A stretch of DNA of 45,803 nucleotides from positions 1 to 45,803 of the forward strand of contig JAQXNC010000103.1 in NCBI GenBank assembly GCA_029097145.1, given 5' to 3'. Position numbers and translations under genes: made by a program. The DNA comes from Bacillota bacterium (GTDB taxonomy: Bacteria; Bacillota_I; Bacilli_A; Erysipelotrichales; Erysipelotrichaceae). Positions 9,121-45,150 of this stretch are shown here, one piece after another; position 1 is the stretch's first letter; every line of letters begins with the position of its first letter. The notes beneath the pieces are model-generated. The model had not been told where the DNA came from. It ran no database searches and worked only from the letters and a program-made list of their open reading frames with translations.

Positions 9121-9203
9121 TGGTGCACCAGACAAGATTTGAACTTGCACGATCGCTCACACGCCCCTCAAGCGTGCGCGTCTACCAATTCCGCCACTGG
9201 TGC
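9121..9203 (-). tRNA. tRNA-Leu(GAG)
   Basis: Revcomp GCACCAG...CACGC TTGAGGG GCGTG...GTTCAAATC...CTGGTGCACCA; type II variable arm, encoded CCA. Confidence 0.95.
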
Positions 9204-9212
9204 TTTATTGAG

Positions 9213-9296
9213 TGGTGCGCCAAACAGGACTTGAACCTGCACGAGTAAATCACATGAACCTGAATCATGCGCGTCTACCATTTCCGCCATTGGCGC
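9213..9296 (-). tRNA. tRNA-Leu(CAG)
   Basis: Revcomp GCGCCAA...CATGA TTCAGGT TCATG...GTTCAAGTC...TTGGCGCACCA; encoded CCA. Confidence 0.95.
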
Positions 9297-23554: not shown

Positions 23555-23632
23555 TGGGGCGATTGACGGGACTCGAACCCGCGAGTGCCAGAGCCACAAT
23601 CTGGTGTGTTAACCAGCTTCACCACAACCGCC
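23555..23632 (-). tRNA. tRNA-His(GTG)
   Basis: Revcomp GGCGGTTG...CCAGA TTGTGGC TCTGG...GGTTCGAGTCC...CAATCGCCCCA; G-1 and C73 present, encoded CCA. Confidence 0.95.
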
Positions 23633-25271: not shown

Positions 25272-26128
25272 TGAGTTTTATTAATGATTTACTTACAAGT
25301 GATATCTTTGACTTTGGTAAAACTATTTTTGCCAATGGTCTACTACTATCACTGTTTTATATTCTTGCGGTGTATGTCTTTTCCAATATTGTATCAAAGG
25401 CATTATGCAAGGCTCTTGATAAAATGGCGATGAAATATGGCCGTCATGAAGACATGCTTTTTATTCTGATAAAGAAGATTATTAAAGCAGTTACGTTGGC
25501 GATAGTTGTTGTGATAGCACTATATGAAATAGTTCCATTTAGAAGTCTTGGGAATGCGGTATTAGGTTTATCAGGTATTCTGACGGTTGCCTTGACTCTT
25601 GGAGCTCAGGATATTGCATCTAACTTTGTATCAGGTTTTGTCTTATCAGTTTATGAGCCTTTTAAAAAGGGTGATCTCATTTATATCAAGGAAAAAGATA
25701 TTACTGGAATTATTGAAGATATGAATTTCAGACACTGCATAATCAGAACCTATGACAACACAAAAGTGATAGTACCAAACAATACTCTTAATAACGCAAT
25801 TGTTGAAAACCGTGGATCAGCTAACAGTGAACCATATAATAATCTCTACTACATCGATATTGATTATCGAAGTGATTATCAGCTGGCTATTAGAATGTTA
25901 AAAGAGTTTCTGGTCTCATCAGATATTGTAGTGAGGAAAAAGGATGTTGCGGTAAGTGTTGGTGAACTTAAGGACAGTTCTATCAGTATCAAGATAAGAG
26001 TATATACTAAATCGCCTGATGATGGTTTTGTGCTTAAAGGTCAGCTTAATGAATTTGTATTAGATAAATTACGTAAGGCAGGTATTGAAATACCTTATCC
26101 ACATCTGAGTGTTGAAGTAAATAAATGA
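25268..26128 (+). CDS. MscS-family mechanosensitive ion channel
   Basis: LGLSGILTVALTLGAQDIASNFVSGFVLSVYEPFKKGDLI; NTKVIVPNNTLNNAIVENR. Confidence 0.94.
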   Translation: MMSFINDLLTSDIFDFGKTIFANGLLLSLFYILAVYVFSNIVSKALCKALDKMAMKYGRHEDMLFILIKKIIKAVTLAIVVVIALYEIVPFRSLGNAVLGLSGILTVALTLGAQDIASNFVSGFVLSVYEPFKKGDLIYIKEKDITGIIEDMNFRHCIIRTYDNTKVIVPNNTLNNAIVENRGSANSEPYNNLYYIDIDYRSDYQLAIRMLKEFLVSSDIVVRKKDVAVSVGELKDSSISIKIRVYTKSPDDGFVLKGQLNEFVLDKLRKAGIEIPYPHLSVEVNK

Positions 26129-26164
26129 CATTATATTACATTATGATAATATGATGTCTTTTTT
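26127..26164 (+). terminator. Intrinsic terminator after mscS-like gene
   Basis: GACATTATATTA ... TAATATGATGTC TTTTTT. Confidence 0.75.
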
Positions 26165-26213
26165 CATAATATCTGATATTTTTTTCATAGAAGCATATAA
26201 GTTAGGCTTGATT

Positions 26214-26242
26214 TATTTTATGATAGCGATTACAATCAAGGT
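26214..26242 (+). promoter_or_regulatory. Promoter of leader upstream of ankyrin/EF-G-like operon (TTGATT, 17 bp, TACAAT)
   Basis: TTGATT-tattttatgatagcgat-TACAAT read directly; predicted TSS near 26243. Confidence 0.55.
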
Positions 26243-26261
26243 ATAAGAAAGAAGAACAATC

Positions 26262-26348
26262 ATGAGAATACTATTTGGAGGACAAAACAAAAACATTCTT
26301 TTAGCTCCACAAAATGGGGTAATTTCTTATGATTTAAAGAGTTTTTAG
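26262..26348 (+). CDS. Putative 28-aa leader peptide (MRILFGGQNKNILLAPQNGVISYDLKSF)
   Basis: ATG...TAG between a promoter-like element and an intrinsic terminator; not in the supplied ORF list because it is short; SD is weak. Confidence 0.45.
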   Translation: MRILFGGQNKNILLAPQNGVISYDLKSF

Positions 26349-26350
26349 GG

Positions 26351-26378
26351 TGAACGCGTATTTATGTGTTCATTTTTT
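26351..26378 (+). terminator. Intrinsic terminator/attenuator upstream of ankyrin/EF-G-like operon
   Basis: TGAACGC GTATTTAT GTGTTCA TTTTTT (7 bp stem, one G-T). Confidence 0.75.
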
Positions 26379-26410
26379 ATTCTAGTTTGATTTAAAGGAG
26401 GAAAATAATT

Positions 26411-27082
26411 ATGGATCAAACAGTAAACAAGGAATTCTTTGATGCATGTGCAAGCGGTGACTACGCTAAGGTATGTGCAACTATTGCCAAAGGTGCTGAC
26501 GTTAATATGGCAAATGGCGATGGAAGAACAGCGCTAATGAGAGCTGCTAAACGTGGATATACAGATATCGTACGTGTTTTACTGGACAATGGTGCAAATA
26601 CCAGAGCTAGAGACAAGGATAATAAAACTGCCCTGATGGGTGCTGCCAAGAAGGGACATCTTGATATCTGCAAACTGTTAGTTGAAGCAGGTGCTGATGT
26701 TAATTCACATGATAATAACCAGCGTACATCATTAATGAGAGCTGCATTCTTAGGTAATACTGATGTCGTTGAATTCCTGGTTGATAATGGTGCACAGATT
26801 GATGCAGCTGATAATAAAGGCCGTACTGCATTAATGGAATCAGTACTGGCATTTAAAGTTGAAGTTATTCACTATCTTTTAAACAAGGGTGCTGATGTTA
26901 ACCGTAAAGATAATAATGGTTGCACATGTCTTATGAGAGCGAGCTATGGTGGTTACACCGATCTAGTTGTATTCCTGCTTAATCATGGAGCTGATAAGGA
27001 AATTCTTGATAATGATGGTAACAAGGCAATTCATTATGTTAGAACAGAATGCTTCGATGAATTAAAAGGATATCTTAAGTAG
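26411..27082 (+). CDS. Ankyrin-repeat protein
   Basis: About six ~33-aa repeats (GRTALMRAAKRGYTDIVRVLLDNGAN... pattern); SD AAAGGAGG. Confidence 0.95.
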   Translation: MDQTVNKEFFDACASGDYAKVCATIAKGADVNMANGDGRTALMRAAKRGYTDIVRVLLDNGANTRARDKDNKTALMGAAKKGHLDICKLLVEAGADVNSHDNNQRTSLMRAAFLGNTDVVEFLVDNGAQIDAADNKGRTALMESVLAFKVEVIHYLLNKGADVNRKDNNGCTCLMRASYGGYTDLVVFLLNHGADKEILDNDGNKAIHYVRTECFDELKGYLK

Positions 27083-27091
27083 GTGAATAAT

Positions 27092-29170
27092 ATGAAAGAC
27101 TACTTAGCTAATGATATTCGTAATGTCGTTTTATTAGGACATTCAGGCGCTGGTAAATCTACTCTGATTGAAGCCAGCGAATACTTTACAAAAGCCATCG
27201 AAAGAATGGGCAGTGCCAAGGAAGGAAACAGTACTGTTGACTTCGACCCAGAAGAAATTAAACGTGGAATGTCTGTCTTTACAGCCATTGCACCATGTGA
27301 ATGGAAAAATAAGAAGATTAACTTCATTGATACTCCAGGATATCTGGACTATGAGGGTGAAATGCGCAGTGGTTTAGCTGTAGGTGATAATGCACTGATT
27401 GTAGTCAGCGCTAAGGAAGGTGTTGAATCAGGCACTGAAAAAGCCTATAAACTAGTTAACAGACGTAAGATGCCGACAATCTTCTTTGTTAATAAACTCG
27501 ATGAAGAACATGCATCATTTGATAGAACTTATAATGAATTAAGGGATAAGTTTGGTAAGGCAGTTATTCCGTTTGAACTGCCAATGGTTGAAAATGGTGT
27601 AGTTAAAGGTTCAATTAATATTTTAAGAAAGAAAACCTGGTATTATGATGATTTAAGTACAGCTAAGGATGTACCTGAAAATTATATGCCAATGGTTGAA
27701 GAATACTATAATCAGATTACTGAAGCTATCGCTATGGCTGATGATGAACTGATGGAAAAATTCTTCTCTGGTGAACAGTTTGATGAAAATGAAGTTGCCA
27801 AGGGATTGAGAATTGGTGTCAGAAATGGCGATATCAAACCAGTATATTGTGGTAGTGCATCTAAATGCATCGGTATTGAAAGATTACTTGATCTGATTAC
27901 TGAATACTTCCCTAACTATGCTGAAAAGGGTACAGTTGTAGCTCTTGATGAAAATAATGAAGAAGTGATTCTTGAAACAAATGAAACTGAAGCATTCAGT
28001 GCTCAGGTATTCAAAACAATTGTTGACCCATTTGTTGGTAAGATTTCTTATATTAAAGTTATGAGTGGTGTATTAACAAGTGATTCATCAATCTATAACT
28101 CTAATAAAGATCAGCCTGAAAAGGTTAACCAGATTTATATTATCAAAGGTAAGAACCAGATAGCTGTTGGTAAACTGTTCACTGGTGATATCGGTGCGAT
28201 TGTTAAACTGCAGTATACAAATACTAATGATACTCTGGCTACCAAGGCTAAACCAATTCATTTTGAAGATATCGAATTCCCTCTGCCAATGCTTGGATAT
28301 GCTATTTCTCCAAAGACTAAGGCTGATGAAGATAAGATGTCATTTGCTTTACAGAGAATTCTTGAAGAAGATAAATCACTTAAGTTCGTTAAGAATAATG
28401 AAACTCATGAGCAGGTATTATATGCAATGGGTGATCAGGCATTTGAAGTTGTTAAGAATAAACTTAAGAATAAATATAAGGTTGAAATCGATATGAAGGA
28501 ACCTAAGGTTCAGTATCGTGAAACAATTCGTGGTAAAGCTGAAGTTCAAGGTAAATATAAGAAACAAAACGGTGGTGCTGGTCAGTATGGTGATGTATGG
28601 ATTAGATTTGAATATAATCCAGATGATGAAGGACTGGTATTTGCTGAAGAAGTATTTGGTGGTTCTGTACCTAGAAACTTCTTCCCATCTGTTGAAACTG
28701 GTTTAAGAAGCTGCATGGACAAAGGTCCATTAGCTGGATGCAAGGTTGTTAACGTTAAGGCTACACTATATGATGGTTCTTATCATCCAGTTGATTCTAA
28801 ACCAAACTCATTTGAAGCTGCTGCCAGAATCGCTTTCAAGAATGGTATTCCTAAGGCAAACCCAATGATTCTTGAACCTATTGGAAAGGTATCTGTTGTA
28901 TGTCCTGATGAATATACTGGTGATATTATTGGTGACTTCAATAAACGTCGTGGTATGATTATGGATACTGGTTCTACTGGTGAGAGTGGTGAAACCAGAA
29001 TTGATGCTGAAGTACCAATGGCTGAAATGATGAAATACGCAACGGAATTGCGTTCTATGACAAAGGGTAGAGGTTCATATGTAATTGAATTCGATCGTTA
29101 CGAACCAGCTCCACCATTTGTTGCAGATAAGGTTATCAAGGCTGCCAAGGTAGATTTAGAAGAAGAATAA
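27092..29170 (+). CDS. EF-G-like translation GTPase (FusA2-type paralogue)
   Basis: LLGHSGAGKSTLIEA, DFDPEEIKRGMSVFTAIAPCEW, DTPGYLDYEGEMRSG, NKLDEEH; EF-G domains III-V in C-terminal half. ORF track starts at GTG 27083; ATG 27092 is preferred. Confidence 0.92.
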   Translation: MKDYLANDIRNVVLLGHSGAGKSTLIEASEYFTKAIERMGSAKEGNSTVDFDPEEIKRGMSVFTAIAPCEWKNKKINFIDTPGYLDYEGEMRSGLAVGDNALIVVSAKEGVESGTEKAYKLVNRRKMPTIFFVNKLDEEHASFDRTYNELRDKFGKAVIPFELPMVENGVVKGSINILRKKTWYYDDLSTAKDVPENYMPMVEEYYNQITEAIAMADDELMEKFFSGEQFDENEVAKGLRIGVRNGDIKPVYCGSASKCIGIERLLDLITEYFPNYAEKGTVVALDENNEEVILETNETEAFSAQVFKTIVDPFVGKISYIKVMSGVLTSDSSIYNSNKDQPEKVNQIYIIKGKNQIAVGKLFTGDIGAIVKLQYTNTNDTLATKAKPIHFEDIEFPLPMLGYAISPKTKADEDKMSFALQRILEEDKSLKFVKNNETHEQVLYAMGDQAFEVVKNKLKNKYKVEIDMKEPKVQYRETIRGKAEVQGKYKKQNGGAGQYGDVWIRFEYNPDDEGLVFAEEVFGGSVPRNFFPSVETGLRSCMDKGPLAGCKVVNVKATLYDGSYHPVDSKPNSFEAAARIAFKNGIPKANPMILEPIGKVSVVCPDEYTGDIIGDFNKRRGMIMDTGSTGESGETRIDAEVPMAEMMKYATELRSMTKGRGSYVIEFDRYEPAPPFVADKVIKAAKVDLEEE

Positions 29171-29176
29171 AAAAGA

Positions 29177-29210
29177 GGAAGTTGTGTATTATTACATAAC
29201 TTCCGTTTTT
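29177..29210. terminator. Convergent intrinsic terminator overlapping the tmcAL 3' end
   Basis: GGAAGTTGTGTA/TACATAACTTCC, 12 bp stem, T-tract on the plus side. Confidence 0.8.
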
Positions 29211-30298
29211 ATTTCTGGACCTTTAAGTTCACGATTAAGAAGATATTCATAACGTTTTTCATCAAAGAGCGATGCATATAAAGCAGTAGCTTTATATTCA
29301 ATCTCTTTAGCCTTTGGAGGTAATTTTTTGAACTGAGTAATTACGTCTATATCCTTTGATTTAAGATATTTGATCACCTCACGTCCTTTGTCATTGAATC
29401 CTAATACTCTTATATAGTTAAAGTCAGTATTTTCAAGATCATTCTTTTTAATGCCGAGCATTATCTTTAAAAGAATACGTTGAATTCTGGATTGGGTATA
29501 TCTTCTTGAAGTACAATGGCTTATAAAGTCATTATATTCAGTATATTTATAGGCATTATCGATCAGAACCTTTTCAATGCCTTCTGATACCATATGAATT
29601 TCCTTTAAATATTCTCTTGAAGCTGTCAGCAGTATTCTTCTTAGATAAGGATATAAATCTTCAATAAAGACTGGGTATGGTATATCAGAAGGAGTTGCAT
29701 GATGATAGTCTAAACCTTCTTTAATCGCTTTTCTTATTGCACTGGCACTTGCAATTTCATTCAGTTCAGAAGAATGATAGTGATTGGTTCTTGCGATAGA
29801 GACTGGTTTAATATCTTTATCTCGTAATGCTTTCAGATATGATATGGCCAGAATATCATTTGGATAGAAGGAATCACTTAATAGTGATATGGCTTTTGGA
29901 TATGACAGACCTTCTTTCATGATTTCTTTAAGATTGTCTGGATTAATCTCGACAGAAGCAACTTCCATAAGGCCTTCAAGATCGTTGGTTTCAGAACCAA
30001 AACATAGTGAATTGATCTGACACTTGTTTAAGATTTCAACTGCTCCTTTAGCAAATACACTGGCACTTTGTGTTGCGTATACAAATGGCAATTCAATCAC
30101 AAGGTCAATACCATTATCCAATGCTGTTTTGGCTTTGGCAAATTTATCCATGACACTTAGATCACCGCGTTCAGTATAGTTTCCAGACATAATGGCGATG
30201 ATGGCATCAGGATTAGTCAATCTTCTGGCTTCTTTTATATGATGTATATGTCCGTTGTGAAAAGGATTATATTCAACTACAATACCGCATAAATTCAT
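29192..30298 (-). CDS. tmcAL: tRNA(Met) cytidine acetate ligase (TmcAL)
   Basis: CGIVVEYNPFHNGHIHHIKEARR, IMSGNYTERGDLSVMDKFAKAKTALDNGIDLVIELPFVYATQSA. Confidence 0.95.
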   Translation of the reverse strand: MNLCGIVVEYNPFHNGHIHHIKEARRLTNPDAIIAIMSGNYTERGDLSVMDKFAKAKTALDNGIDLVIELPFVYATQSASVFAKGAVEILNKCQINSLCFGSETNDLEGLMEVASVEINPDNLKEIMKEGLSYPKAISLLSDSFYPNDILAISYLKALRDKDIKPVSIARTNHYHSSELNEIASASAIRKAIKEGLDYHHATPSDIPYPVFIEDLYPYLRRILLTASREYLKEIHMVSEGIEKVLIDNAYKYTEYNDFISHCTSRRYTQSRIQRILLKIMLGIKKNDLENTDFNYIRVLGFNDKGREVIKYLKSKDIDVITQFKKLPPKAKEIEYKATALYASLFDEKRYEYLLNRELKGPEIKTEVM

Positions 30299-41700: not shown

Positions 41701-41925
41701 ATCATTTGAGGGAAATCGAAGAAAAAGAATTATCTGTTTGGAGTTTTTAGAGACAAAGTGGCTGGTGAAAACTTTGAATGATAAACAGATTTGACACTTT
41801 GGAGATGTCATCAGGAAATGGGTGACCGTAAATCTGCGTTAAAGGTTAGAGGGCATATATGTTTTTATATATGAACTAAGGTGGCAACGCGTTATTAACG
41901 TCCTTAGATTTGGGGACGTTTTTAT
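41701..41925 (+). promoter_or_regulatory. T-box riboswitch, histidine specific (specifier CAC 41795-41797), controlling hisS-aspS
   Basis: AGAGA...GGCTGGTGAAAA distal Stem I, TTGA-CAC-TTTGGA specifier region, GACCGTAAATCTGCGTTAA, T-box AAGGTGGCAACGCG 41878-41891, terminator AACGTCC...GGACGTT-TTT. Confidence 0.93.
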
Positions 41926-41942
41926 TTTACAAGGAGGATAAA

Positions 41943-43214
41943 ATGTATCAGACAGTAAAAGGGACATACGATATACTGAGTGAAGACTATCGCAAATTTG
42001 AAATGGTTAATACACTGTTTAAACATTTTCTGGATCTTTATGGCTATGAAATTATGAAGACACCAGTATTTGAATATACAGGAGTATTTTCTAAAGAGAA
42101 TGATACCAGTGATATGGTTACCAAAGAGATGTATACCTTCTCGATGAATGGTAAGGATTCTCTAACTTTAAGACCAGAAGGAACAGCTGGAATCATTAGA
42201 TCATTTGTTCAGAACAAGATGTATTCAAAAGAACTGCCTGTAAAACTGGCTTATATCGAAGAAATGTTCAGACACGAAAGGCCACAAAAGGGTAGACAGA
42301 GACAGTTTACTCAGCTGGGGGTTGAAAACATTGGTGATAAGAATCCGATGATTGATGCTGAAGTAATCGCTCTTGGTTATTTCTTTGTCAAGACACTAGG
42401 ATTAAAGTCAATCAAAGTATGTATTAATACTTTGGGTGATGCGACTTCTAGACTAAAGTATAAGGAAGCATTAAAGACATATTTTGATGAATATCGTGAC
42501 CAGTTGTGTTATGACTGTCAAAATCGTCTTGATAAGAACCCATTACGTATACTGGACTGTAAGATTGATCACGATCTTGAATGTGTTAAAAATGCACCAA
42601 AAATGCATGATTATCTGACTGAAGAATCAGCAGCATATTTCAAAAAGGTTCTGGAATATCTCGATGCGCTTGAGATTCCATATACAATTGACAACAATCT
42701 TGTAAGAGGTCTTGATTACTACACTGATACTGTTTTTGAAGTTGTATCAACACATGAAGTATCTGGATCACAAAGCACAATCTTTGGTGGAGGCAGATAT
42801 GATAATCTCGTTAAAGAGATGGGTGGACCAGAAATATCGGGTATCGGCTTTGCGATTGGCGAAGAAAGACTGATTATCCTGGCTGAAGCTGAAGGAGTTT
42901 TTGATGAATATAAACCTTATGTTGATGCATATGTAATTGATATGACAAAGGGTAGTGCATATGCATTGAAGATTGCTAATGATTTGAGAATGAATTCATA
43001 TACAACAGAAATTAATTACTATGATCGTTCGATGAAGTCACAGTTTAAATCATCAGATCGTAAAGGTGCAAGATTTGTGGTAATTATTGGTGAAGATGAA
43101 ATGAATAAGAATACTGTTATGTTAAAGGATACAAGGACAAGGGAACAGTATGAAGTTAACAGTGATGAACTTGTCGATAAACTGGATTTATTAATGGAGG
43201 GTGAAGATGAATAG
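41943..43214 (+). CDS. hisS: Histidyl-tRNA synthetase
   Basis: VKGTYDILSEDYRKFE, LRPEGTAGIIRSF, MFRHERPQKGRQRQFTQLGVE, LVRGLDYYTDTVFE; ATG 41943 with SD AAGGAGG. Confidence 0.97.
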   Translation: MYQTVKGTYDILSEDYRKFEMVNTLFKHFLDLYGYEIMKTPVFEYTGVFSKENDTSDMVTKEMYTFSMNGKDSLTLRPEGTAGIIRSFVQNKMYSKELPVKLAYIEEMFRHERPQKGRQRQFTQLGVENIGDKNPMIDAEVIALGYFFVKTLGLKSIKVCINTLGDATSRLKYKEALKTYFDEYRDQLCYDCQNRLDKNPLRILDCKIDHDLECVKNAPKMHDYLTEESAAYFKKVLEYLDALEIPYTIDNNLVRGLDYYTDTVFEVVSTHEVSGSQSTIFGGGRYDNLVKEMGGPEISGIGFAIGEERLIILAEAEGVFDEYKPYVDAYVIDMTKGSAYALKIANDLRMNSYTTEINYYDRSMKSQFKSSDRKGARFVVIIGEDEMNKNTVMLKDTRTREQYEVNSDELVDKLDLLMEGEDE

Positions 43215-44988: not shown

Positions 44989-44992
44989 TTTA

Positions 44993-45150
44993 GAGCCTGA
45001 GGGATCTCGTTAAAATTCCTACATATGTAAATCGGGAATTCAGAGTTATCGTTTGGTGTTGAAAACCTGTCATTGAACAGGAATCCTAAAGAACGATATA
45101 GGATACCCACCTGGGAGAAGCCAGGAAATTTTACAACCCTTGGGCTTTAT
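44993..45150 (+). ncRNA. ssrS: Probable 6S RNA (SsrS/BsrA-like)
   Basis: Ends pair over 11 bp (GAGCCTGAGGG with CCCTTGGGCTT), continued by GTTAAAATTCC/GGAAATTTTAC; directly after aspS, where B. subtilis bsrA lies; own TATAAT and U-rich end. Confidence 0.75.

Follow-up and report, generated by a model that had tools for sequence, protein, structure and literature searches.

A candidate ribosome-dependent transcription attenuator with a weakly constrained leader peptide upstream of the ank-fusA2 operon of Erysipelotrichaceae

A leader ORF and a terminator stand before an EF-G-like ribosomal GTPase gene in tet(M), as they do in the ank-fusA2 operon described here, although tet(M) is an acquired tetracycline resistance gene. 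In their working, the systems closest to the ank-fusA2 leader are msrDL and tlrB. A ribosome stalled at the msrDL leader stop codon obstructs an intrinsic terminator (PMC10314930), and in tlrB a ribosome nearing the leader stop interferes with the terminator (PMC6851288). The msrDL-msrD system, whose target is the ABC-F protein MsrD (PMC10314930), shares with the ank-fusA2 leader an ORF, an intrinsic terminator, a translation-factor target and, presumably, the TTNTTT pause motif and the ribosome at the stop codon as antiterminator. However, msrDL is a 6-codon, macrolide-sensing arrest peptide, whereas the ank-fusA2 leader has about 30 codons, a peptide that is not conserved, a helix occluding the RBS, a promoter with a cre site and an EF-G paralogue as its target. 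The B. subtilis tlrB (yxjB) leader (PMC6851288) would resemble it in the NusG-type pause, the leader peptide and terminator, the hairpin blocking further leader initiation and the near-stop ribosome that disturbs the terminator; it differs in its 9-codon RYR stall peptide, its additional translation attenuation and its rRNA methyltransferase target. The vmlR, bmrBCD and hflXr leaders (PMC9226507, PMC4191407, PMC6310831) also act by ribosome-mediated transcription attenuation on translation and drug-protection genes, but they were modelled with antiterminator structures, and none was detected in the ank-fusA2 leader. We found no prior description of an ank-fusA2 attenuator in the open-access collection searched, which omits most subscription journals. 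What would be new among the known attenuators is its independence of the peptide and its control of an EF-G paralogue, while the principle of a ribosome acting at the stop codon was already shown for msrDL.

Here, we analysed a stretch of 45,803 nucleotides (the window; contig C103) from an Erysipelotrichaceae genome of 1.65 Mb that is 87% complete. The leader and the operon comprise the following features, by position in the window.

26208-26236, forward strand: sigma-70 promoter, TTGATT (26208-26213), spacing 17, TACAAT (26231-26236), read from the sequence; promoters of relatives are similar
26220-26235, forward strand: putative CcpA-type cre site ATGATAGCGATTACAA, a perfect match to WTGNNARCGNWWWCAW, overlapping the -10 element
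26258-26268, forward strand: 5' strand of a long-range helix, AAUCAUGAGAA, including the leader start codon (MFE fold; matched/mismatched pairing)
26262-26348, forward strand: leader ORF MRILFGGQNKNILLAPQNGVISYDLKSF, 28 codons, stop TAG, weak SD GAAGAAC; frame conserved family-wide
26297-26311, forward strand: T-rich pause-like motif TSTTTTHRRYGGGG, a weak copy that scores 7.6 bits, where copies in relatives reach as much as 20 bits
26324-26334, forward strand: UUCUUAUGAUU in the distal ORF, pairing as the 3' strand of the helix that occludes the RBS (fold; pairing over loci)
26350-26378, forward strand: predicted intrinsic terminator, hairpin 26350-26373 and U-tract 26373-26378, starting 1 nt past the leader stop
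26411-27082, forward strand: ank, encoding a 223-aa ankyrin-repeat protein; SD at 26394-26401
27083-29170, forward strand: fusA2-type EF-G paralogue (NF009381); GTG at 27083, likelier start ATG at 27092
29177-29212, forward strand: operon-end terminator (terminator scan)

The 28-codon ORF ending in TAG and the hairpin and U-tract behind it are present as the original prediction had described them, and the promoter scan returned no promoter-like site between the U-tract and the ank start codon, again in agreement with it. The promoter had been given with the correct sequence and spacing, but the true site lies 6 nt further to the left. The RBS-sequestering helix, the pause-like motif and the cre site in the promoter had been overlooked, and the poor SD of the window's leader had gone unmentioned. 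In relatives, the -35 element is mostly TTGAAG, TTGCAA or TTGATT and the -10 element TACAAT or TAAAAT, at a spacing of 16-17. Neither scan of the region stood out from chance (17 promoters vs 23.4 in shuffles, 3 terminators vs 2.3), and the case for the leader therefore rests on the comparison of loci. At 26126-26166, 3' of an mscS-like gene, lies a palindrome with a T-run which by eye looks like the terminator of that gene and which is absent from the terminator-scan list. The window also holds a T-box leader (RF00230, 109.7 bits, 41710-41908, +) preceding an ORF at 41910-43214, a 6S RNA (RF00013, 62.5 bits, 44991-45150, +) and three tRNA genes (9124-9203, 9216-9296, 23558-23631, -).

The EF-G paralogue scores 872 bits against NF009381, above the cut-off, and lies below the cut-off of the canonical EF-G model TIGR00484. 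A separate canonical fusA is found elsewhere in the genome, and the FusA that it encodes has the DTPGH motif, while in the paralogue the position of the catalytic His is occupied by Tyr (DTPGY) in 92 of the 92 proteins counted. With its EF-G-like domains, and not being the product of the canonical fusA, the window protein is of the EF-G2/FusA2 type. The EF-G2 of Bacteroides works without GTP hydrolysis, as stated in PMC10294740. Among 296 genomes sampled from the class, ank was found in 26, and every one of these belongs to a single family (f1). In the spacer between the terminator and the ank SD (26379-26410 and its counterparts in relatives), TTTGA was seen in 36 of 96 loci, against 11 in mononucleotide shuffles.

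The leader diverges so fast that a DNA similarity search with it returned short pieces only, in relatives. The collection of loci was therefore made through proteins, by comparing the EF-G protein with 118 whole genomes and by adding further stretches and, from the 226 loci that the ank alignment yielded, the best 80, whose named relatives are Erysipelotrichaceae and related Erysipelotrichales records. The distinct upstream regions numbered 124, and in 113 of them an automated screen detected an SD, an ORF of about 30 codons and a stop codon beside or inside the 5' arm of a terminator, which is the least selected frequency for this arrangement. The window locus itself failed the screen because of its weak SD (GAAGAAC, compared with GAAGGAC or AGGAG in close relatives) and was added by hand. 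A stricter rule, an SD and an ATG ORF ending at the terminator, held in 93 of 95 non-redundant loci, compared with 7.6 +/- 2.2 loci after dinucleotide shuffling; as these 95 loci had been preselected by a similar first screen (an ORF near a predicted terminator), the frequency is biased, and the evidence lies in the contrast with shuffles and not in the fraction. When SD and ATG were kept fixed, a frame open as far as the terminator survived shuffling of the ORF body in 27.1 of 95 cases. The comparison of ank-fusA2 loci, a check that had been proposed, finds the leader ORF, its stop-to-terminator position and the predicted terminator kept in most of them. Frame and SD of the putatively translated leader are conserved over the loci, although the SD of the window is weak.

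The commonest distance from stop codon to terminator is -2, meaning that the stop overlaps the stem by 2 nt (36 of 95 loci). The screen admitted distances from -30 to +15, and all 95 loci fall between -25 and +13. We assumed that a ribosome standing at the stop codon hides 10 nt beyond it. With these nucleotides masked, every 5'-arm pair is hidden in 80 of 96 loci and at least half of the pairs in 87 of 96, and the mean hairpin dG changes from -11.3 to -0.9 kcal/mol (96 loci); in the window locus, 90% of the 5'-arm pairs would be hidden. The geometry would thus permit the masking of the 5' arm by a ribosome at the leader stop, as originally proposed.

The peptide itself carries little sign of selection. 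Among 31 pairs of equal-length ORFs of 70-100% identity, which are not independent of one another, a simple count gave a dN/dS of about 0.86 in frame, the two alternative frames giving 1.02 and 0.92, and changes were spread evenly over codon positions 1, 2 and 3 (184, 204 and 189). The synonymous-biased substitution that had been predicted for the leader ORF was therefore not borne out. Stop codons are mixed as well (48 TAA, 27 TGA, 21 TAG). The leader frame is conserved while its peptide is nearly free to change, and this speaks against an arrest peptide or the sensing of particular codons. Leader peptides are depleted in the stall motif R/K-x-R/K (16 vs 27.4 expected) and have no conserved stall peptide, and a stall-peptide reading was rejected on this count. 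An amino-acid-sensing leader of the his or trp kind could draw on the 1.9-fold enrichment of valine in leader peptides; however, in leaders of about 30 codons the commonest residue occurs on average only 4.9 times and is not the same from one leader to another, an antiterminator is not found and the gene under control is not biosynthetic, so that this reading was also rejected and appears to us highly improbable. The original view of the leader ORF as an attenuator thus holds for its positional conservation before ank-fusA2 and for the masking geometry, but not for synonymous bias or for a motif of amino-acid sensing or drug-induced stalling.

The leader of the window, including the terminator, has an MFE fold with a z of -3.87, in which AAUCAUGAGAA pairs with UUCUUAUGAUU. 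RNAalifold detected the terminator and no other structure in a 43-sequence alignment, and co-evolution of the helix was therefore tested by matched versus mismatched pairing. The leader RBS paired better with the distal ORF of its own locus than with partners from other loci (z -11.5 over 94 loci), while control region pairs gave -3.3 to +2.3, those reaching about -3 indicating some composition effect in this test; against shuffles, the mean z was -1.34. The helix differs in sequence from locus to locus and is thus co-evolving. Such a helix, together with a conserved nucleotide motif whose reading frame varies between clades and a dN/dS near 1, could also belong to a structured-RNA switch that binds a ligand or protein and for which the ORF is incidental. 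We consider this rather improbable: SD, ATG and an open frame up to the terminator are retained far beyond shuffles, and no Rfam family reaches its gathering score over the leader, the best cis-regulatory match being the L20 leader with 17.5 bits against a gathering threshold of 58.7. An Rfam riboswitch or leader family was rejected on this score.

We also searched for an antiterminator. The distal ORF gave no pairing signal with the terminator 5' arm (mean z +0.19 vs shuffles), and matched pairs were worse than mismatched ones (z +2.3); an antiterminator formed by upstream sequence was rejected accordingly. These values bear directly on an attenuator induced by a drug or a stall, as in vmlR, bmrB and hflXr, in which a ribosome stalled within the leader would free an antiterminator that disrupts the terminator. 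The leader ORF, pause-like motif, terminator and translation-factor gene are parts common to both, and the RBS helix could serve as an anti-antiterminator. Nevertheless, with the pairing signal absent, the stall motif depleted, no stall peptide conserved and a peptide that evolves almost freely, we hold such a mechanism to be unlikely.

By eye, the arrangement is absent from two loci (L071, L073) and from three of Holdemania (L123, L124, L126), and in L083 and L165 the leader frame seems to run through the terminator. In L086 the screen probably overlooked a leader. The device is thus dispensable in places. Lineages without it, and the lack of a known signal for the leader, would suit a constitutive, leaky terminator with no effect other than reduced expression, behind an ORF of no regulatory role. 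This is a quite improbable account of the tight stop-terminator geometry and of an RBS helix co-evolving in many genera.

The T-rich motif TSTTTTHRRYGGGG scores LL 289, compared with 80-95 in shuffles, and is often found 43 nt before the end of the stop; its reading frame is not fixed but differs between clades. TTNTTT alone is not enriched in leaders (69 vs 75.5), while TTNTTT-N4-Y-G was counted 27 times with 8.1 expected. The NusG of the window's genome reads VVRNTPGVTGF, which we take to contain the N81/T82 pair of B. subtilis NusG. The published NusG pause motif is TTNTTT at -11 to -6 of the paused RNA 3' end, and the elemental pause has Y-1 G+1 (PMC12288461); the pattern in the leaders appears to fit both, and the motif probably pauses RNA polymerase.

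As for carbon control, the window contains a single perfect match to the cre consensus (0.15 expected), and it lies on the leader promoter. Over 96 loci, 14 matches are perfect, where shuffles gave 0, and 17 deviate at one position, where shuffles gave 1.1; Solobacterium-type loci are mostly without one. CcpA may bind at this putative site; the best LacI-family match in the genome has 269.8 bits, the ccpA cut-off being 442. Eight fusA2 homologues without ank from other families of the class (seven of f2, one of f6; L093, L095-L101) have cre matches at 12-13 of 13 positions, scored without a shuffle baseline, and a short 5' UTR with no leader visible upstream when read by eye, a distribution which suggests that carbon control predates the attenuator. 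For Bacteroides, PMC6989115 reports that fusA2 is induced on carbon limitation and that its fusA2-type EF-G is needed for gut colonisation. There an EF-G paralogue is tied to carbon supply (PMC6989115, PMC10294740), as ours may be, by BT4338 activation where our operon has a putative cre site; the regulator and the phylum are different, and the accessible parts of these two papers note no leader attenuator. A carbon link for the leader operon is plausible.

Conserved frame, stop position, helix, motif and cre site and the absent antiterminator signal, all from comparison of sequences, point to a reading that we favour with moderate confidence: the leader is a ribosome-dependent, peptide-independent transcription attenuator whose antiterminator is the ribosome itself, standing at the stop codon. 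We infer this role from the geometry and the missing antiterminator. A ribosome that finishes the leader would halt on the stop codon and cover the adjoining terminator's 5' arm, allowing RNA polymerase to continue into ank-fusA2. Should initiation come too late, the RBS of the nascent leader would pair with the distal ORF, the terminator would fold and transcription would end. The T-rich Y-G motif probably holds RNA polymerase, letting the first ribosome start or catch up, and the cre site would add carbon-catabolite control at the promoter. The ribosome at the end of the leader frame thus probably decides whether the operon is on, and what is sensed would be whether and when a ribosome is there, whatever peptide it has made. 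Much more tentatively, the leader may be a peptide-independent sensor of termination or recycling, in which any ribosome lingering at the stop codon would induce an EF-G paralogue with a possible part in freeing it; if true, post-termination ribosomes and a ribosomal GTPase would be coupled in a direct feedback loop.

If the favoured reading is correct, this family of gut bacteria would possess a widespread attenuator controlling an alternative EF-G, with the information held in the position of the ribosome rather than in the peptide. Such a leader would be a natural reporter of the feedback that a ribosomal GTPase receives from translation termination, from recycling and from the carbon supply.
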